Part shown: positions 1 to 53,061 of the stretch, in pieces
Layout: every line of letters begins with the position of its first letter
How positions within the stretch are numbered: position 1 is the first letter of the stretch
Position numbers and translations under genes: made by a program
Assembly (NCBI RefSeq): GCF_014842995.1
Contig: NZ_JACYXL010000001.1
Location: 1,183 to 65,182, forward strand
Direction: 5' to 3'
DNA: 64,000 bases
Source of the DNA: Rhodanobacter sp. 7MK24
GTDB taxonomy: Bacteria; Pseudomonadota; Gammaproteobacteria; Xanthomonadales; Rhodanobacteraceae
The notes under the pieces: generated by a model
The model's input: the letters and a program-made list of their open reading frames with translations, nothing else
The model's database searches: none
What the model was told of the DNA's origin: nothing

Positions 1-183
1 TTCAACCGGACGTATCGCACCGAAGTCCTGGATCGCTACGTCTTCACCAGCCTGCACGAGGTCCGCCGCATGACCGAGGACTGGCGCCACCGCTACAACC
101 ATCAACGTCCCCATCGCTCACTCGGCGGACTCTCGCCCGTCGCGTTTGCCATGGCATCATCAACTACCTCTATTTCCGGGTGA
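1..183 (+). CDS. IS3-family transposase OrfB, C-terminal fragment
   Basis: Sixty codons are visible, entering from the left edge of the window. The segment contains W-R-x-x-Y-N-x-x-R-P-H-x-S-L-G-G-L-S-P, the standard end of the DDE integrase-core (rve) domain of IS3-family OrfB proteins, with the last catalytic Glu region just upstream. It ends with TGA at 181-183. The protein catalyses strand transfer during transposition. Only the tail is present, so whether the element is intact cannot be judged. Confidence 0.85.
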   Translation, partial: FNRTYRTEVLDRYVFTSLHEVRRMTEDWRHRYNHQRPHRSLGGLSPVAFAMASSTTSISG

Positions 184-206
184 CTCGGGAAAACGAGGAC
201 GCTTCA
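1..206 (+). mobile_element. IS3-family insertion sequence, right end
   Basis: The window opens inside an insertion sequence. A transposase reading frame ends at 183. The following 23 bases run to a TCA at 204-206, as expected for an IS3-type terminus (TG...CA ends). I placed the boundary at 206 because a DUF4279 reading frame on the other strand becomes recognisable immediately beyond it. The left end and the target duplication are outside the window, so the exact edge is inferred. Confidence 0.6.
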
Positions 207-368
207 GAGCGACCAATGTCCCGTACGTTTTTCACGGCGCCTTGGATCTAAGTCGCCTTTGAGCCAGGCCTGTGTTGGCGCGACCCCAAGCTCGGCAGTC
301 AGGGCCGACGGATCTATATCGTCGCCATAGACTGAGAAGTATGCGTAGCAGTTATTGGGTTCTGTCAT
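204..368 (-). pseudogene. DUF4279-type cassette gene truncated by IS insertion
   Basis: From ATG at 368 on the minus strand a 54-codon frame begins MTEPNNCYAYFSVYGDDIDP and ends in R-T-G-H-W-S-L. The Y-F-S-V-Y-G-D-D-x-D-P start, the L-G-V-x-P-T turn, the K-G-D and the R-R/T-G-x-W-S-L block match the first half of DUF4279 proteins, which are usually about 130 residues. The stop codon TGA at 206-204 is supplied by the terminal bases of the IS. The ATG lies 10 bases inside the cassette boundary at 378, as for the other genes in the array. DUF4279 has no established function. Confidence 0.7.
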
Positions 369-372
369 TGAG

Positions 373-429
373 CGCTAACGCTAGAGTTAAGCGGCGGCGA
401 AGCCGTCCGCCTTGAACGAAATGTTAGGC
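373..429 (-). repeat. integron attC site a (follows the 424-711 gene)
   Basis: This is a 57-bp imperfect palindrome. Read on the minus strand it has the canonical attC layout: R'' box GCCTAAC, an arm containing CGTTCAAG, a central CGGCTTCGCCG hairpin, an arm containing CTTAACTC, then R' box GTTAGCG with the cut expected at 378/379. It differs from the other three sites at only a few positions. R'' pairs with the TTAGGC that starts its own cassette at 724. Confidence 0.88.
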
Positions 430-711
430 ATGCGAGGTGCATGCCCGACGAACTAGGTTGCTGAGCATTGCTGCCTTTTCGAGGACAGGACCAGCAACGA
501 CCCCGTCATAATCTAGAGCGCGCGTGATAGATGCCTCTGGGATGTCGTGGCCAGAGGCAACTGACGCGTGCATGTCTTGGAAGACGCGAAGCCACTTAGC
601 TTGAACAACCTCGGTCCAGCCATCCGCGCGAGCCGCACCTGTGAGTGGCGCAGAAAGCGCGACCGTGAGCTGGTCGAGGAGTTGGCAGATGTGGTGGCGA
701 GGACCTTCCAT
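424..711 (-). CDS. integron cassette protein, unknown function (95 aa)
   Basis: I do not recognise this protein. It is 95 residues, soluble and probably mostly helical, with no signal peptide. The start ATG at 711 lies 13 bases inside the cassette boundary at 724/725. The stop TAA at 426-424 lies inside the R'' core of its own attC site, which is typical compact cassette design. The position between two attC sites, in the orientation where attC follows the gene, is the main support for it being a real gene. Confidence 0.6.
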   Translation of the reverse strand: MEGPRHHICQLLDQLTVALSAPLTGAARADGWTEVVQAKWLRVFQDMHASVASGHDIPEASITRALDYDGVVAGPVLEKAAMLSNLVRRACTSHA

Positions 712-718
712 GTTTGCT

Positions 719-775
719 GCCTAACGCTAGAGTTAAGCGGCGGCGAAGCCGTCCGCCTTGAACGAGTTGTTAGGC
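719..775 (-). repeat. integron attC site b (follows the 791-1009 gene)
   Basis: This 57-bp site has the same layout as the other attC copies: minus-strand R'' GCCTAAC (775-769), central hairpin, and R' GTTAGGC (725-719) with the recombination cut expected at 724/725. Unlike the others, its R'' does not complement the start of its own cassette, which begins TTATGC at 1030. That suggests a past exchange of cassette ends or mutation. Confidence 0.88.
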
Positions 776-790
776 CAGCCGCGACCTAGC

Positions 791-1009
791 CTACCTAGGA
801 ACATTGGTGATCTCGTCTGGATACATTGCGGCAAGCCAGATTGTGTAGCCGTTGCTGGAGTCGGAACACTCGACCTCAAAGGCATCGGCATAGACTTCTA
901 AGATAGTCCCTACGTCTCCTATGGCCGGCGCTCTTTGCCAGTCGGCTGCCACCTCCTTAAAGCGATCGTCACGGAGCGAGGTAACTCTGATGACGTCAAA
1001 CTGCTTCAT
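791..1009 (-). CDS. DUF4926-like integron cassette protein (72 aa)
   Basis: This small protein begins MKQFDVIRVTSLRDD and contains G-D-V-G-T-I-L-E-V-Y followed by a F-E-V-E-C-S-D strand. That pattern resembles the short SH3-like DUF4926 family (usual core: R-G-x-V-G-T-I/V-V-E-V...Y-E-V-E-F). DUF4926 proteins have no known biochemical role but are frequent in toxin-antitoxin and integron-like settings. ATG at 1009 is 21 bases inside the cassette boundary at 1030, with an AAGAG ribosome-binding site upstream. Confidence 0.65.
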   Translation of the reverse strand: MKQFDVIRVTSLRDDRFKEVAADWQRAPAIGDVGTILEVYADAFEVECSDSSNGYTIWLAAMYPDEITNVPR

Positions 1010-1024
1010 GCATGTGCTCTTGAG

Positions 1025-1081
1025 GCATAACGCTGGAGTTAAGCGGCGGCGAAGCCGTCCGCCTTGAACGAAATGTTAGGC
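1025..1081 (-). repeat. integron attC site c (follows the 1076-1399 gene)
   Basis: This 57-bp site has minus-strand R'' GCCTAAC (1081-1075), a central hairpin identical to the other copies, and R' GTTATGC (1031-1025) with the cut expected at 1030/1031. R'' is complementary to the TTAGGC that starts its own cassette at 1414, as expected for a functional circular cassette. Confidence 0.88.
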
Positions 1082-1399
1082 CTCGGTGGGATGGGTCGCC
1101 GCGTCATCTGCGAGCTTCTTTGTAAGAGCATTTGCAGCTTCGAGTGCGGCATTTTCCAACGAACCACACATCTTGATGACCGCGGACTGGCTCGACCAGT
1201 CAGATATAGACCACTGCTCAGATTCTGGATAGATGTAGATCATGTGGCGAAACGCAGTGATGCTCGAACCAAGGTTGGAAATTGGTCCGGCTCCGACACA
1301 AACCGTTTTGCCGAGACTCCAATCCCTTGCGGCTGCATGAAATCCTTTTTTGCGGAGCCACTCGATTGCTTCTTCTCGGGTATGCATCGCTGATGCCAT
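1076..1399 (-). CDS. integron cassette protein, unknown function (107 aa)
   Basis: I do not recognise this protein. It starts MASAMHTREEAIEWLRKKGF, a likely N-terminal helix, followed by a mixed alpha/beta stretch with M-I-Y-I-Y-P and a helical Ala-rich tail. It has no signal peptide or membrane segment. ATG at 1399 is 15 bases inside the cassette boundary at 1414; an in-frame ATG at 1387 is an alternative. The stop TAA lies in the R'' box of its attC. Small soluble proteins of this kind in cassettes are often immunity or toxin-antitoxin components, but nothing here proves that. Confidence 0.6.
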   Translation of the reverse strand: MASAMHTREEAIEWLRKKGFHAAARDWSLGKTVCVGAGPISNLGSSITAFRHMIYIYPESEQWSISDWSSQSAVIKMCGSLENAALEAANALTKKLADDAATHPTEA

Positions 1400-1408
1400 C
1401 GTTGAAAG

Positions 1409-1465
1409 GCCTAACGCTGGAGTTAAGCGGCGGCGAAGCCGTCCGCCTTGAACGAATTGTTATGC
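1409..1465 (-). repeat. integron attC site d (follows the 1470-1868 gene)
   Basis: This 57-bp site has minus-strand R'' GCATAAC (1465-1459), central hairpin CGGCTTCGCCG, and R' GTTAGGC (1415-1409) with the cut expected at 1414/1415. R'' is complementary to the TTATGC at 1886-1881 that begins its own cassette, so this cassette and its site appear intact. Confidence 0.88.
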
Positions 1466-1469
1466 GGCA

Positions 1470-1868
1470 CTACCAGAGCCGCCACCATGGCTTTTTGCTC
1501 GTAGGAACGGATGCTTTAGCTGGACTTTGAGGTGGTGCCACGACGTCTGTGATTTGGATACTTTTGGAGTATGTGGAGTCTCGCTGCTTCGTCTTTAGCA
1601 GGCCAGCGCTTTGAAGCGCATGGAGAACCGGAACAAGCTCGCCCAGCCCACAAACCTCGATCACGTTGTCTTTGAACTGCTGTTGGGTAGACCAAAGCAA
1701 ATTGTGAAGTCGGTTCTCGGTGAGCTGACCTTTAAACTCGGCTCTGTCGATAGAGAGCGTCCCCGGATACGCGCCGTTAAAACCAGCATCTAACTTGCAC
1801 CAGTAGTCGTGGTACCACCACTCGTCACCACGATGCGTCTCCCAACGCCCAGCCATGGCGTACCTCAC
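1470..1868 (-). CDS. integron cassette protein, unknown function (132 aa)
   Basis: This is the cassette gene nearest the presumed attI end. I do not recognise the protein. It is rich in aromatic residues at both ends (W-W-Y-H-D-Y-W near the start, P-W-W-R-L-W at the stop). The middle, K-D-N-V-I-E-V-C-G-L-G-E-L-V-P-V-L-H-A-L, looks like a strand-helix unit. The start is GTG at 1868, 18 bases inside the cassette boundary; ATG at 1856 is an alternative. The first cassette of an array is normally the best expressed. Confidence 0.6.
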   Translation of the reverse strand: MRYAMAGRWETHRGDEWWYHDYWCKLDAGFNGAYPGTLSIDRAEFKGQLTENRLHNLLWSTQQQFKDNVIEVCGLGELVPVLHALQSAGLLKTKQRDSTYSKSIQITDVVAPPQSPAKASVPTSKKPWWRLW

Positions 1869-1880
1869 ATGTGTTTTGCC

Positions 1881-1918
1881 GCATAACGCTTAGTAGACCC
1901 CGGATCGGGGCATATGCA
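1881..1918 (-). other. array boundary: degenerate attC- or attI-like site
   Basis: The outermost cassette begins at 1886/1887 with core GTTATGC (minus strand, 1887-1881). Just outside it, on the minus strand, lies a small hairpin CCCCG-ATC-CGGGG followed by TCTACTAAGC and the core. This resembles the second half of an attC arm with a shortened stem. It could be a decayed attC, a secondary insertion site or part of attI. I cannot tell these apart. Confidence 0.4.
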
Positions 1919-2206
1919 CGCCATGCTCCATCGTCGATGTGGGCCCGTCAAGCGAATGAATGGCAGCAGTTTCAAGAACTTGCTCTACCTTCCTGCGTGT
2001 TGCCAGATGATCGCTTGCTTTGCGTATCACGCTAAACGGGGCTTTTGTGGTTTATCGCCTCGAAAAGATGGATACGCACGATATCTCGTTGGAGATGGCA
2101 TCCCAGTGGTCTGCTTTTGGCGTGCAGGAGGAAGTTGCCTCCGATGGGGTGGCGAGGATGGTTCCTTGCCCGGGCCATGCCCTCGTGGGGCGTGCCGCGA
2201 GCAACC
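1887..2206. other. 320-bp gap with no convincing gene
   Basis: An integron integrase or its remnant would be expected here or further right if this were a complete integron. Translation of both strands shows no tyrosine-recombinase motif. A 78-codon plus-strand frame from TTG at 2020 runs into the 3' end of pilR and has no family resemblance. The segment probably holds flanking sequence, possibly the cassette promoter reading leftward. Confidence 0.5.
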
Positions 2207-3613
2207 TCAGTCGATACCCAGCTTCTTCAGCTTGTAGCGCAGCGCCCGGAAGGTGATGCCGAGTTTCTTCGCGGCGGCGGTCTTGTTGTAGCGGGACTCT
2301 TCCAGCGCTTTCATGATCGCGCTGCGTTCCAGGTTGCTGATGTAGTCGTCCAGACCGCCGGCAGCGGCCGAGGATACGGGTGGCGTGGTCGCCGGAGCGG
2401 CAGCGCCGTTGCCGGACGGAGGTTGGACGGCAGCGGACTCAAGGCGCTGCAGGCGTTGCGGCAGCATCAGGTCGTCGGCAGCGATAGTGTCGCCGTCGCA
2501 CATCGCGGTAGCGCGTTCGAGGATGTTCTCCAGCTCGCGCACGTTGCCGGGGAAGTCGTAGCTTTCCAGCGCCTGCTGCGCCTCAGCCAGCAGGCGGCGC
2601 GGGGCGCTGCCGTCCTTGCGGGCAAGGCCCTGCAGGATGTGGTTGGACAGCAGCGACACGTCGCCGCGGCGCTCGCGCAGCGGCGGCACGCGTAGTTCGA
2701 TCACGTTGATGCGGTAGAACAGGTCCTGGCGGAACTGGCCCTGCTCGACCAGCGCGGCGAGGTTCTTGTGGGTGGCGGAGAGGATGCGCACGTCCACCGG
2801 CACTTCCTCGCGCGCGCCGATCGGGCGCACGGCCTTTTCCTGGATCGCGCGCAGCAGTTTCACCTGCATGTGCAACGGCAGCTCGGCCACCTCGTCGAGG
2901 AACAGCGTGCCGCCGTGCGCAGCCTGGAACAGGCCTTCCTTGTCGGTATGCGCGCCGGTGAAGCTGCCCTTCCTGTGTCCGAAGAACTCGCTTTCCATCA
3001 GCTCGGAGGGGATGGCGCCGCAGTTCACGGGGATGAACGGGCCGCTCGCGCGGGGGCCCTGTTCGTGGATGAGGCGGGCGACCAGCTCCTTGCCCACGCC
3101 GGATTCGCCGGCGATGTACACCGGCGCCTGGTTGCGCGCGAGCTTGGCGATGGTGGAGCGCACCTGCTGCATCGCCGACGAGTCGCCGACCAGCCGCTCG
3201 CCGGCACCGCCGGCCTTGGCGGCGGACTTGCCGCTGCGCTTTTCTTCGGCCAGCCGCAGCGCGGTGCGCACCAGCTGGCGCAGCATCTGGATGTCCACCG
3301 GCTTGGAGACGAAGTCGAACGCACCGGCCTTCAGCGCGTTCACCGCGGCATCCACATTGCCATAGGCGGTAATCATCGCCACCGGCATATCCGGGTGGTT
3401 GGCGCTGATGTGCTCCACGATCTCGTGTCCGGTGCCGTCGGGCAGGCGCATGTCGGTGAAGCAGAGGTCGTAGCTGCGTTCGCCCAGCGCTCGGCGCGCC
3501 TCGGTGACGGTGCCCACGGCGTCGACTTGCAGATCCATTCGACCCAGCGTGATGGTGAGCAGTTCGCGGATATCGCGCTCGTCGTCGATGACCAGGACGG
3601 TCTGTTGGCTCAT
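2207..3613 (-). CDS. pilR: type IV pilus response regulator PilR (sigma-54 activator)
   Basis: This 468-residue NtrC-family regulator has a receiver domain (about 1-120; D10-D11, phosphoacceptor D54 in F-T-D-M-R-L-P-D-G, Lys in S-K-P-V-D). A sigma-54 AAA+ domain follows, with Walker A G-E-S-G-V-G-K-E, loop G-S-F-T-G-A and Walker B G-T-L-F-L-D-E. The C-terminal Fis-type helix-turn-helix is R-Y-N-K-T-A-A-A-K-K-L-G-I-T-F. PilR activates sigma-54 transcription of pilin genes after phosphorylation by PilS. I chose ATG at 3613 because it starts directly at the receiver domain; an upstream extension to 3673 has no homology. It lies 72 bases after the esterase gene on the same strand and about 15.6 kb from pilS. 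Confidence 0.88.
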   Translation of the reverse strand: MSQQTVLVIDDERDIRELLTITLGRMDLQVDAVGTVTEARRALGERSYDLCFTDMRLPDGTGHEIVEHISANHPDMPVAMITAYGNVDAAVNALKAGAFDFVSKPVDIQMLRQLVRTALRLAEEKRSGKSAAKAGGAGERLVGDSSAMQQVRSTIAKLARNQAPVYIAGESGVGKELVARLIHEQGPRASGPFIPVNCGAIPSELMESEFFGHRKGSFTGAHTDKEGLFQAAHGGTLFLDEVAELPLHMQVKLLRAIQEKAVRPIGAREEVPVDVRILSATHKNLAALVEQGQFRQDLFYRINVIELRVPPLRERRGDVSLLSNHILQGLARKDGSAPRRLLAEAQQALESYDFPGNVRELENILERATAMCDGDTIAADDLMLPQRLQRLESAAVQPPSGNGAAAPATTPPVSSAAAGGLDDYISNLERSAIMKALEESRYNKTAAAKKLGITFRALRYKLKKLGID

Positions 3614-3666
3614 GGTTGGTGCTGTCTTGGCGGGGAGTACCAGCGAGGATACTCGGGGCGCCGGCG

Positions 3667-3683
3667 GGGGCAAAGCTTGCCCC
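3667..3683 (-). other. hairpin after the esterase gene, no U-tract
   Basis: On the minus strand GGGGCAAGCTTTGCCCC follows the esterase stop codon by two bases. It forms a GGGGCAA stem-loop but continues as CGCCGG rather than a T-run. It is therefore not a standard intrinsic terminator, and read-through from the sugar genes into pilR is possible. Confidence 0.4.
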
Positions 3684-52985: not shown

Positions 52986-53061
52986 GGGTCGTTAGCTCAG
53001 TTGGTAGAGCACTGGACTTTTAATCCATTGGTCCCGGGTTCGAGTCCCGGACGACCCACCA
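52986..53061 (+). tRNA. tRNA-Lys (anticodon UUU)
   Basis: A 76-base cloverleaf including encoded CCA. The acceptor stem is GGGTCGT/ACGACCC, the D arm is GCTC...GAGC, the anticodon loop is CTTTTAA with anticodon TTT, and the T arm is GGGTTCGAGTCCC. It follows queC and is closed by a strong terminator. Confidence 0.97.

Follow-up and report, generated by a model that had tools for sequence, protein, structure and literature searches.

Arrays of attC sites that lack an integron integrase are usually classed as CALINs, and their origin is unclear. The array analysed here lies in a 64,000-nucleotide stretch of Rhodanobacter sp. 7MK24 DNA (the window, G000:C11:1183-65182, where G000 is the source genome and C numbers are its contigs) and fits the CALIN definition of at least two attC sites with intI absent nearby. 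It differs from such arrays in having an attI of its own, which comes with a conserved leader. The authors of IntegronFinder 2.0, in the excerpted text, call attI sites outside class 1 poorly described and not detected (PMC9024848), so that the attI heads of such arrays would escape notice.

The closest described system within the same taxonomic order is the sedentary chromosomal integron of Xanthomonas, with intI beside ilvD. The available portion of Colombi et al. describes a single platform, at ilvD, and reports that about 50% of Xanthomonas genomes have CALINs at other conserved loci, which are taken as a sign of ancestral activity; that portion mentions no attI for these CALINs (PMC12444791), whereas the solo platforms reported below are headed by attI. 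R1, a sequence model that we built from 66 leaders of the family including the three of G000, detects the ilvD-side leaders. In group g67, probably Xanthomonas as judged from the ilvD linkage, it matched five of nine chosen genomes, four with one leader and one with two; the leaders lie beside ilvD in two loci scanned with Pfam (G283 and G395), and the second leader of G315 lies elsewhere.

Earlier work on intI pseudogenes and on genomes with more than one intI describes both intI decay and integron duplication; as far as the excerpt of that survey goes, intI genes only were sought (PMC2426708), so that attI platforms without intI fell outside it. The delta-attI cassettes of mobile integrons supply extra attI copies that are functional with an integrase, and the excerpted account places a truncated attI inside a cassette (PMC12901181); the window attI instead heads an array at a chromosomal locus. 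A search of the open-access literature, with most subscription papers outside its reach, found no prior report of attI-headed integrase-less platforms occurring several per genome.

The window array and its boundaries

The first-pass annotation of this DNA had reported four closely similar 57-bp attC sites on the minus strand and no integrase in the window. Both observations hold. The cores start at 373, 719, 1025 and 1409, within repeat copies at 368-429, 714-775, 1020-1081 and 1404-1465 that are spaced by 346, 306 and 384 nt (sequence comparison within the window); relative to the first copy, copies 2-4 show 90, 94 and 87% identity across 62 nt, and a profile search of the window gave no integrase-family match. 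Read on the minus strand, each site has RYYYAAC-like and GTTRRRY-like ends that flank a common inner hairpin. DNA folding of the plus strand, the attC bottom strand, gave the full-length hairpin as the best structure for two of the four sites (719 and 1409) and pieces only for those at 373 and 1025, with z between -0.7 and -2.3 over the four. A gathering-threshold Rfam scan of the whole window returned a tRNA at 52986 as its sole match. The minus-strand ORFs between the sites encode 132, 107, 72, 95 and 54 aa (the 54-aa one is cut); three of the five (132, 107 and 95 aa) have no Pfam or NCBIfam match. They begin about 11-22 nt inside the G/TT points by eye, in agreement with the 10-21 bases given earlier for genes starting just inside each boundary. 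The features of the locus, in window positions, are:

1..206, plus: right end of an IS3-like element with an rve_3 transposase piece, in the last cassette (Pfam rve_3, E 9.5e-18)
207..378, minus: cassette 5, a DUF4279 gene (E 2e-7) cut by the IS3 element, its other half on C36
373..429, minus: attC, 57 bp (repeat comparison)
379..724, minus: cassette 4, ORF 424-711 (95 aa), no family found
719..775, minus: attC, 57 bp (repeat comparison, full-length fold)
725..1030, minus: cassette 3, ORF 791-1009 (72 aa), weak DUF4926 match (E 2.8e-6, slightly below the Pfam cut-off)
1025..1081, minus: attC, 57 bp (repeat comparison)
1031..1414, minus: cassette 2, ORF 1076-1399 (107 aa), no family found
1409..1465, minus: attC, 57 bp (repeat comparison, full-length fold)
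1415..1886, minus: cassette 1, adjoining attI, ORF 1470-1868 (132 aa), no family found
1885..1902, minus: attI core CGGGGTCTACTAAGCGTT (core-pattern search, G000:C11:3067-3084)
1885..2079, minus: attI leader of about 195 nt, homologous to the C6 integron leader (R1 match G000:C11:3066-3216, E 4.6e-20; alignments)
1946..1951, minus: -35-like TTGACG (leader comparison)
about 1961..1966, minus: position of a GTAGGA-like box, degenerate in the window (mapped through L030, the C6 intI locus)
2047..2085, plus: about 13 codons left of the intI start (alignments; end by eye)
2207..3673, minus: NtrC-type response regulator gene flanking the platform (Pfam Response_reg, Sigma54_activat, HTH_8)

The first-pass annotation lacked the attI core at 1885-1902 with its leader, the intI stub, and the IS3 end by which the last cassette is interrupted. 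Its description of an array without integrase in the window is borne out, as is one of the options that it offered, an integrase lost here and present elsewhere; the description proved incomplete in view of these additional parts. It had also held that single copies of the repeat scattered over unrelated places would speak against a cassette array. The 57-bp repeat does give 24 matches at 11 genomic places, the one on C36 being the last attC of the window array, and the attC cassette reading stands. The match at C37:152924 covers 24 nt without attC ends and was taken as chance. Among the parts of a complete integron, the window has the attC array and the attI heading it; of an adjacent intI there are about 13 codons left. 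Homology to the region upstream of the C6 integron continues through this remnant and stops near 2085. The outer limit of the leader was placed by eye at the GTGCGTATCC arm. A strict sigma-70 scan of the window leader found no promoter and no -10 element matching TTGACG. Judged by sequence, the window array is an integrase-less integron platform headed by its own attI, not a plain CALIN.

The window begins just past a gap near the left end of contig C11, inside an IS3 copy, and contigs C6, C36 and C37 likewise terminate in the same IS3. The end of C36 carries the other IS3 end, the rest of the DUF4279 cassette, the last attC (288388-288438) and then a hybrid histidine kinase gene (receiver, HisKA and HATPase domains in Pfam); GAGC is present on either side of the IS3, in the C11 and C36 flanks. 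The locus thus runs from the regulator gene, which we take to be pilR, through leader-attI and the cassettes (IS3 in the last) to the final attC and the kinase gene. In five platform-free relatives (G174, G127, G041, G069 and G095) the kinase gene comes after the NtrC-type regulator gene. Since these genes are consecutive there, the window array is a closed insertion between them, and a locus closed on both sides is not a stray fragment of the intI locus. The regulator gene is found in 14 of 15 genomes of the genus. An attI core lies next to it in G000, G022 and G082 and in none of the other 11, in which 0.4-1.5 kb after the gene was examined; G147 has a 49-nt leader-like stretch there. Between G000 and G022 the leader aligns at 86% over 205 nt (84% in a second leader comparison), and the roughly 100 nt past the regulator gene give no alignment at E 1e-8.

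The integrase, its sister platforms and their spread

Profile searches of G000 found integrase-family matches on C6, on C37 and at C11:199.5-200.1 kb, and the C6 gene alone is a recognisable intI. Its 327-aa product scores 450 bits to TIGR02249 (cut-off 265); the other two fall far under the family cut-off and score as XerC/D-like. The C6 intI adjoins a second attI, on a contig other than the window's, and its closest match among named genomes, at 95%, comes from Rhodanobacter sp. DHB23 (in a search that may omit the genome itself). Right past the active-site region (L030:2640-2676), C6 IntI diverges from 22 other IntI of the family and ends in a shorter, unrelated tail. Because of this altered C-terminus its present activity is uncertain, and the enzyme could be weakly active or inactive, or the tail could be an assembly error.

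Searching G000 with the sequence that lies upstream of the C6 intI gave three copies, at C6, at C11:300.7 kb and in the window (R1 E values 1.5e-25, 9.1e-25 and 4.6e-20, respectively). The attI at C11:300.7 kb heads another integrase-less array. A degenerate fourth leader (C31:82302, R1 E 1e-3) lies about 300 nt before two attC sites, and C37:29355 gives a weak R1 match (E 0.0044). On the strength of these matches G000 has at least three well-conserved attI platforms, the window one among them, besides a degenerate one, and a single recognisable intI. The C6 and window leaders are 60% identical. The leader at C11:300 kb is mosaic in that the 60 nt or so nearest attI are those of the C6 leader and the outer end resembles the G022 orthologue; leaders therefore recombine with each other.

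More attC sites, single or in short arrays and without an R1 leader, occur in G000 at C11:634 kb, C22:89 kb, C5:25 kb, C31:549 kb and C37:163-165 kb; they are possibly off-target insertions or decayed arrays. An upstream repeat, GCGCGCATCCTGCGCGCCAGAAGC, has five copies in G000 (at most three mismatches), one of them beside the C11:300 kb platform; it also occurs beside other solo platforms of the genus and was considered as an insertion target.

The attI core pattern, with at most two mismatches, was run against 197 genomes of the family Rhodanobacteraceae and matched 85 places in 41 genomes, compared with 24 for a reversed control pattern (sums by eye). We examined 76 of the 82 places outside G000 (leaving out G128:C203, G092, G152, G164:C28, G164:C34 and G036) and the three in G000, 79 in all; dropping L183, L228 and L229 as likely chance left 76 platforms in 36 genomes, 22 of which have two or more. 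tblastn tagged 27 of the 76 as intI-bearing. Reading these results by hand gave 23 platforms with a near-full-length intI at about -145, three with a broken intI (L176, L205 and L217) and 50 without intI beside attI (solo platforms); L177 had been wrongly tagged for an intI match 3.6 kb off. Of the platforms with at least 1000 nt of downstream sequence, 39 of 42 solo ones and 20 of 21 intI-labelled ones have an attC on the expected strand in the first 1000 nt, and only five attC sites were found elsewhere. The attC finder used is strand-symmetric and insensitive, recovering 0, 1, 0 and 1 site in four known arrays; at 20 loci from other genomes it placed attC downstream in 11 and upstream in none.

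Across the order, 125 of 398 genomes have an R1 leader match with E <=0.001, and 76 of these genomes have more than one (by eye); these are counts of leader matches, mostly without an array check, by a model built from one family. In G470, from another family, a leader on that genome's contig C6 is followed by 11 attC-like sites, with no intI match on the contig. intI scored above the family cut-off in 33 of 40 family genomes and in 18 of 19 further multi-hit genomes, some of the passes being partial genes. Four multi-platform genomes have no intI above the cut-off (G003, G018, G034 and G413) and four have partial intI only (G039, G146, G460 and G468); solo platforms therefore also outlive the integrase. 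In G030 several stages occur within one genome, where a full intI adjoins one leader and four other leaders adjoin intI pieces, which end at residues 53, 77, 78 (with a stop) and 114; the five leaders (L260-L264) have a different attI core, TACTTGTAGTTAG. Copies of an integron, or of the intI 5' end with attI, may seed new loci, where intI would then decay.

Leader elements and cassette turnover

We compared 23 leaders with intI and 48 without it (L156, L227, L176, L205 and L217 excluded). The attI core is present in 22 of the 23 intI leaders and 41 of the 48 solo leaders, and a TTGAC-like element in 23/23 and 44/48. A GT[AG][AG]G[AG] box that precedes the attI core by about 60 nt behaves differently, being present in all 23 intI leaders versus four of 48 solo leaders (5/48 in a wider stretch); all three broken-intI leaders have it. 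The same pattern in a control stretch occurs in 8/23 and 7/48, and a looser box allowing one transition in 13/48 solo leaders. As the box was chosen after viewing the alignment, all 123 usable columns were scanned. The five best separators all fall within the box (best p 3.1e-10), and the intI start codon ranks lower; the p-values are descriptive rather than tests, since the platforms share ancestry. Among 16 genomes with both kinds of leader, 12 have the box in every intI leader and in no solo leader; in the remaining four some solo leader also has it, and an intI leader without the box occurs in none of the 16. In this comparison solo leaders keep attI and the -35-like element and mostly lack the intI-tied box, a selective loss. 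The box is a candidate control element of intI.

Leaders L154-L229 also have a motif that forms inverted and direct repeats roughly 185 to 120 nt ahead of the attI core (by eye). Its types (GCATATC..GATATGC, GTTACAC..GTGTAAC and others) vary between lineages and match within a leader; it looks like an operator with a co-evolving binder. Cutting by IntI at the outer arm of the leader was set aside because GTGCATATC-type leaders have no GTT there.

Cassette content was compared for 23 orthologous solo pairs (of at least 24) at 11 loci, with arrays viewed out to about 6 kb from attI or as far as the contig end; pairs and platforms are not phylogenetically independent. In 20 of the 23, attC was found on both sides, and a block of at least 150 nt was common to one of these 20 (287 nt, 69%). 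Such blocks were found in none of seven intI-labelled orthologous pairs, one of which lacks a detected attC on one side and one of which includes a broken intI. Between the species compared, cassettes have been replaced while the locus stays, and by this measure solo platforms turn over like intI platforms. Cassettes differ even where orthologous leaders are close, as in window/G022 (84%), L168/L170 (95%) and L157/L161 (97%). Conversely, in the groups L159/L162/L163/L165 and L188/L190/L200 the flanks are 82-91% identical and the leaders only 43-62%, so the leader seems to be swapped at a fixed locus. Exchange of entire loci could produce the turnover seen at solo platforms as well.

Sharing between platforms of one genome (at least 200 nt, at least 80%) was found in five of the 18 genomes having two sizeable arrays, and in three of the five the block is common to an intI and a solo platform; the best such block, 426 nt at 99%, links the intI platform of G031 to one of its solo platforms. 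Likeness of attC as a test for a shared pool gave no signal, solo attC sites being closer to same-genome sister platforms in 43 of 95 cases and to orthologous platforms in 52. Four genomes have, within their cassette arrays, an element of about 1.57 kb with an IS110-family transposase (Pfam Transposase_20 and DEDD_Tnp_IS110), the copies being 79-100% alike (L166:7206-8276, with similar blocks in L165, L167, L169, L222 (two), L224 and L225); it presumably resembles the IS1111-attC group, which targets attC.

Readings of the integrase-less platforms

We regard it as probable that these platforms are remote attI ports, derived from integron copies that lost intI and served in trans by one IntI. 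The remaining IntI would insert and excise cassettes at all platforms, and first cassettes would be transcribed from the leader. The cassette turnover at solo platforms bears on service in trans indirectly. Two rivals concern the family as a whole. Exchange of the whole locus, by which homologous recombination in the flanks imports ready-made arrays from intI-bearing relatives, seems unlikely to us: it would suit a locus whose flanks stay 82-91% alike while leaders fall to 43-62%, and the mosaic of C6 leader and orthologue at C11:300 kb, yet cassettes differ even where orthologous leaders are 84-97% alike. We consider it rather improbable that the platforms are dead relics in which, intI once lost, attI and cassettes decay passively and conservation reflects shared ancestry. 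Loss of the box and of the intI start codon is what such a relic would display, as are the stubs and pieces of intI that G000 and G030 contain, genomes that have solo platforms without a full intI, and the altered tail of the G000 IntI. The attI core and TTGAC element, however, are as well kept as beside intI, nearly all cassettes have been exchanged at orthologous solo loci, and the window leader is 86% identical to that of G022 although the preceding 100 nt or so cannot be aligned.

Two further alternatives concern the window itself. An assembly artefact, in which the array would be part of the C6 integron, separated from it at IS3 copies, is very unlikely. The window does start at a contig gap in IS3, and C6, C36 and C37 end in the same IS, but the array has its own attI and a leader 60% identical to that of C6, the same locus is found in G022 and G082, the two IS flanks have GAGC in common, and the kinase gene recreates the neighbourhood of the relatives. 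CALINs are known to arise when IntI places cassettes in a non-classical genomic (attG) site (excerpt of PMC8618304), and other attC sites of G000 have no detected leader. The head of the window array, though, is a complete attI core that comes with a homologous leader and an intI stub; for this array off-target insertion is refuted by the presence of attI, and we give it next to no weight.

Beyond remote attI ports served in trans, a broader reading, which we hold tentatively and at somewhat less than even chances, is that Xanthomonadales have a distributed integron. One IntI would serve several attI ports maintained by selection at fixed chromosomal loci, the leader (attI, -35-like element and outer repeated motif) would be a module swapped between loci that sheds the intI-expression box after intI loss, and several first cassettes might be expressed at once. 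A distributed integron, if true, would also account for CALINs at conserved positions.

The usual LexA box is reported, in the available part of PMC3108266, to be inapplicable to intI in Xanthomonadales, and a box mostly missing from solo leaders may point to a control element of intI in this order. Because many integrase-less arrays have a selectively conserved attI, their origin, upkeep and expression become testable in a common soil group.
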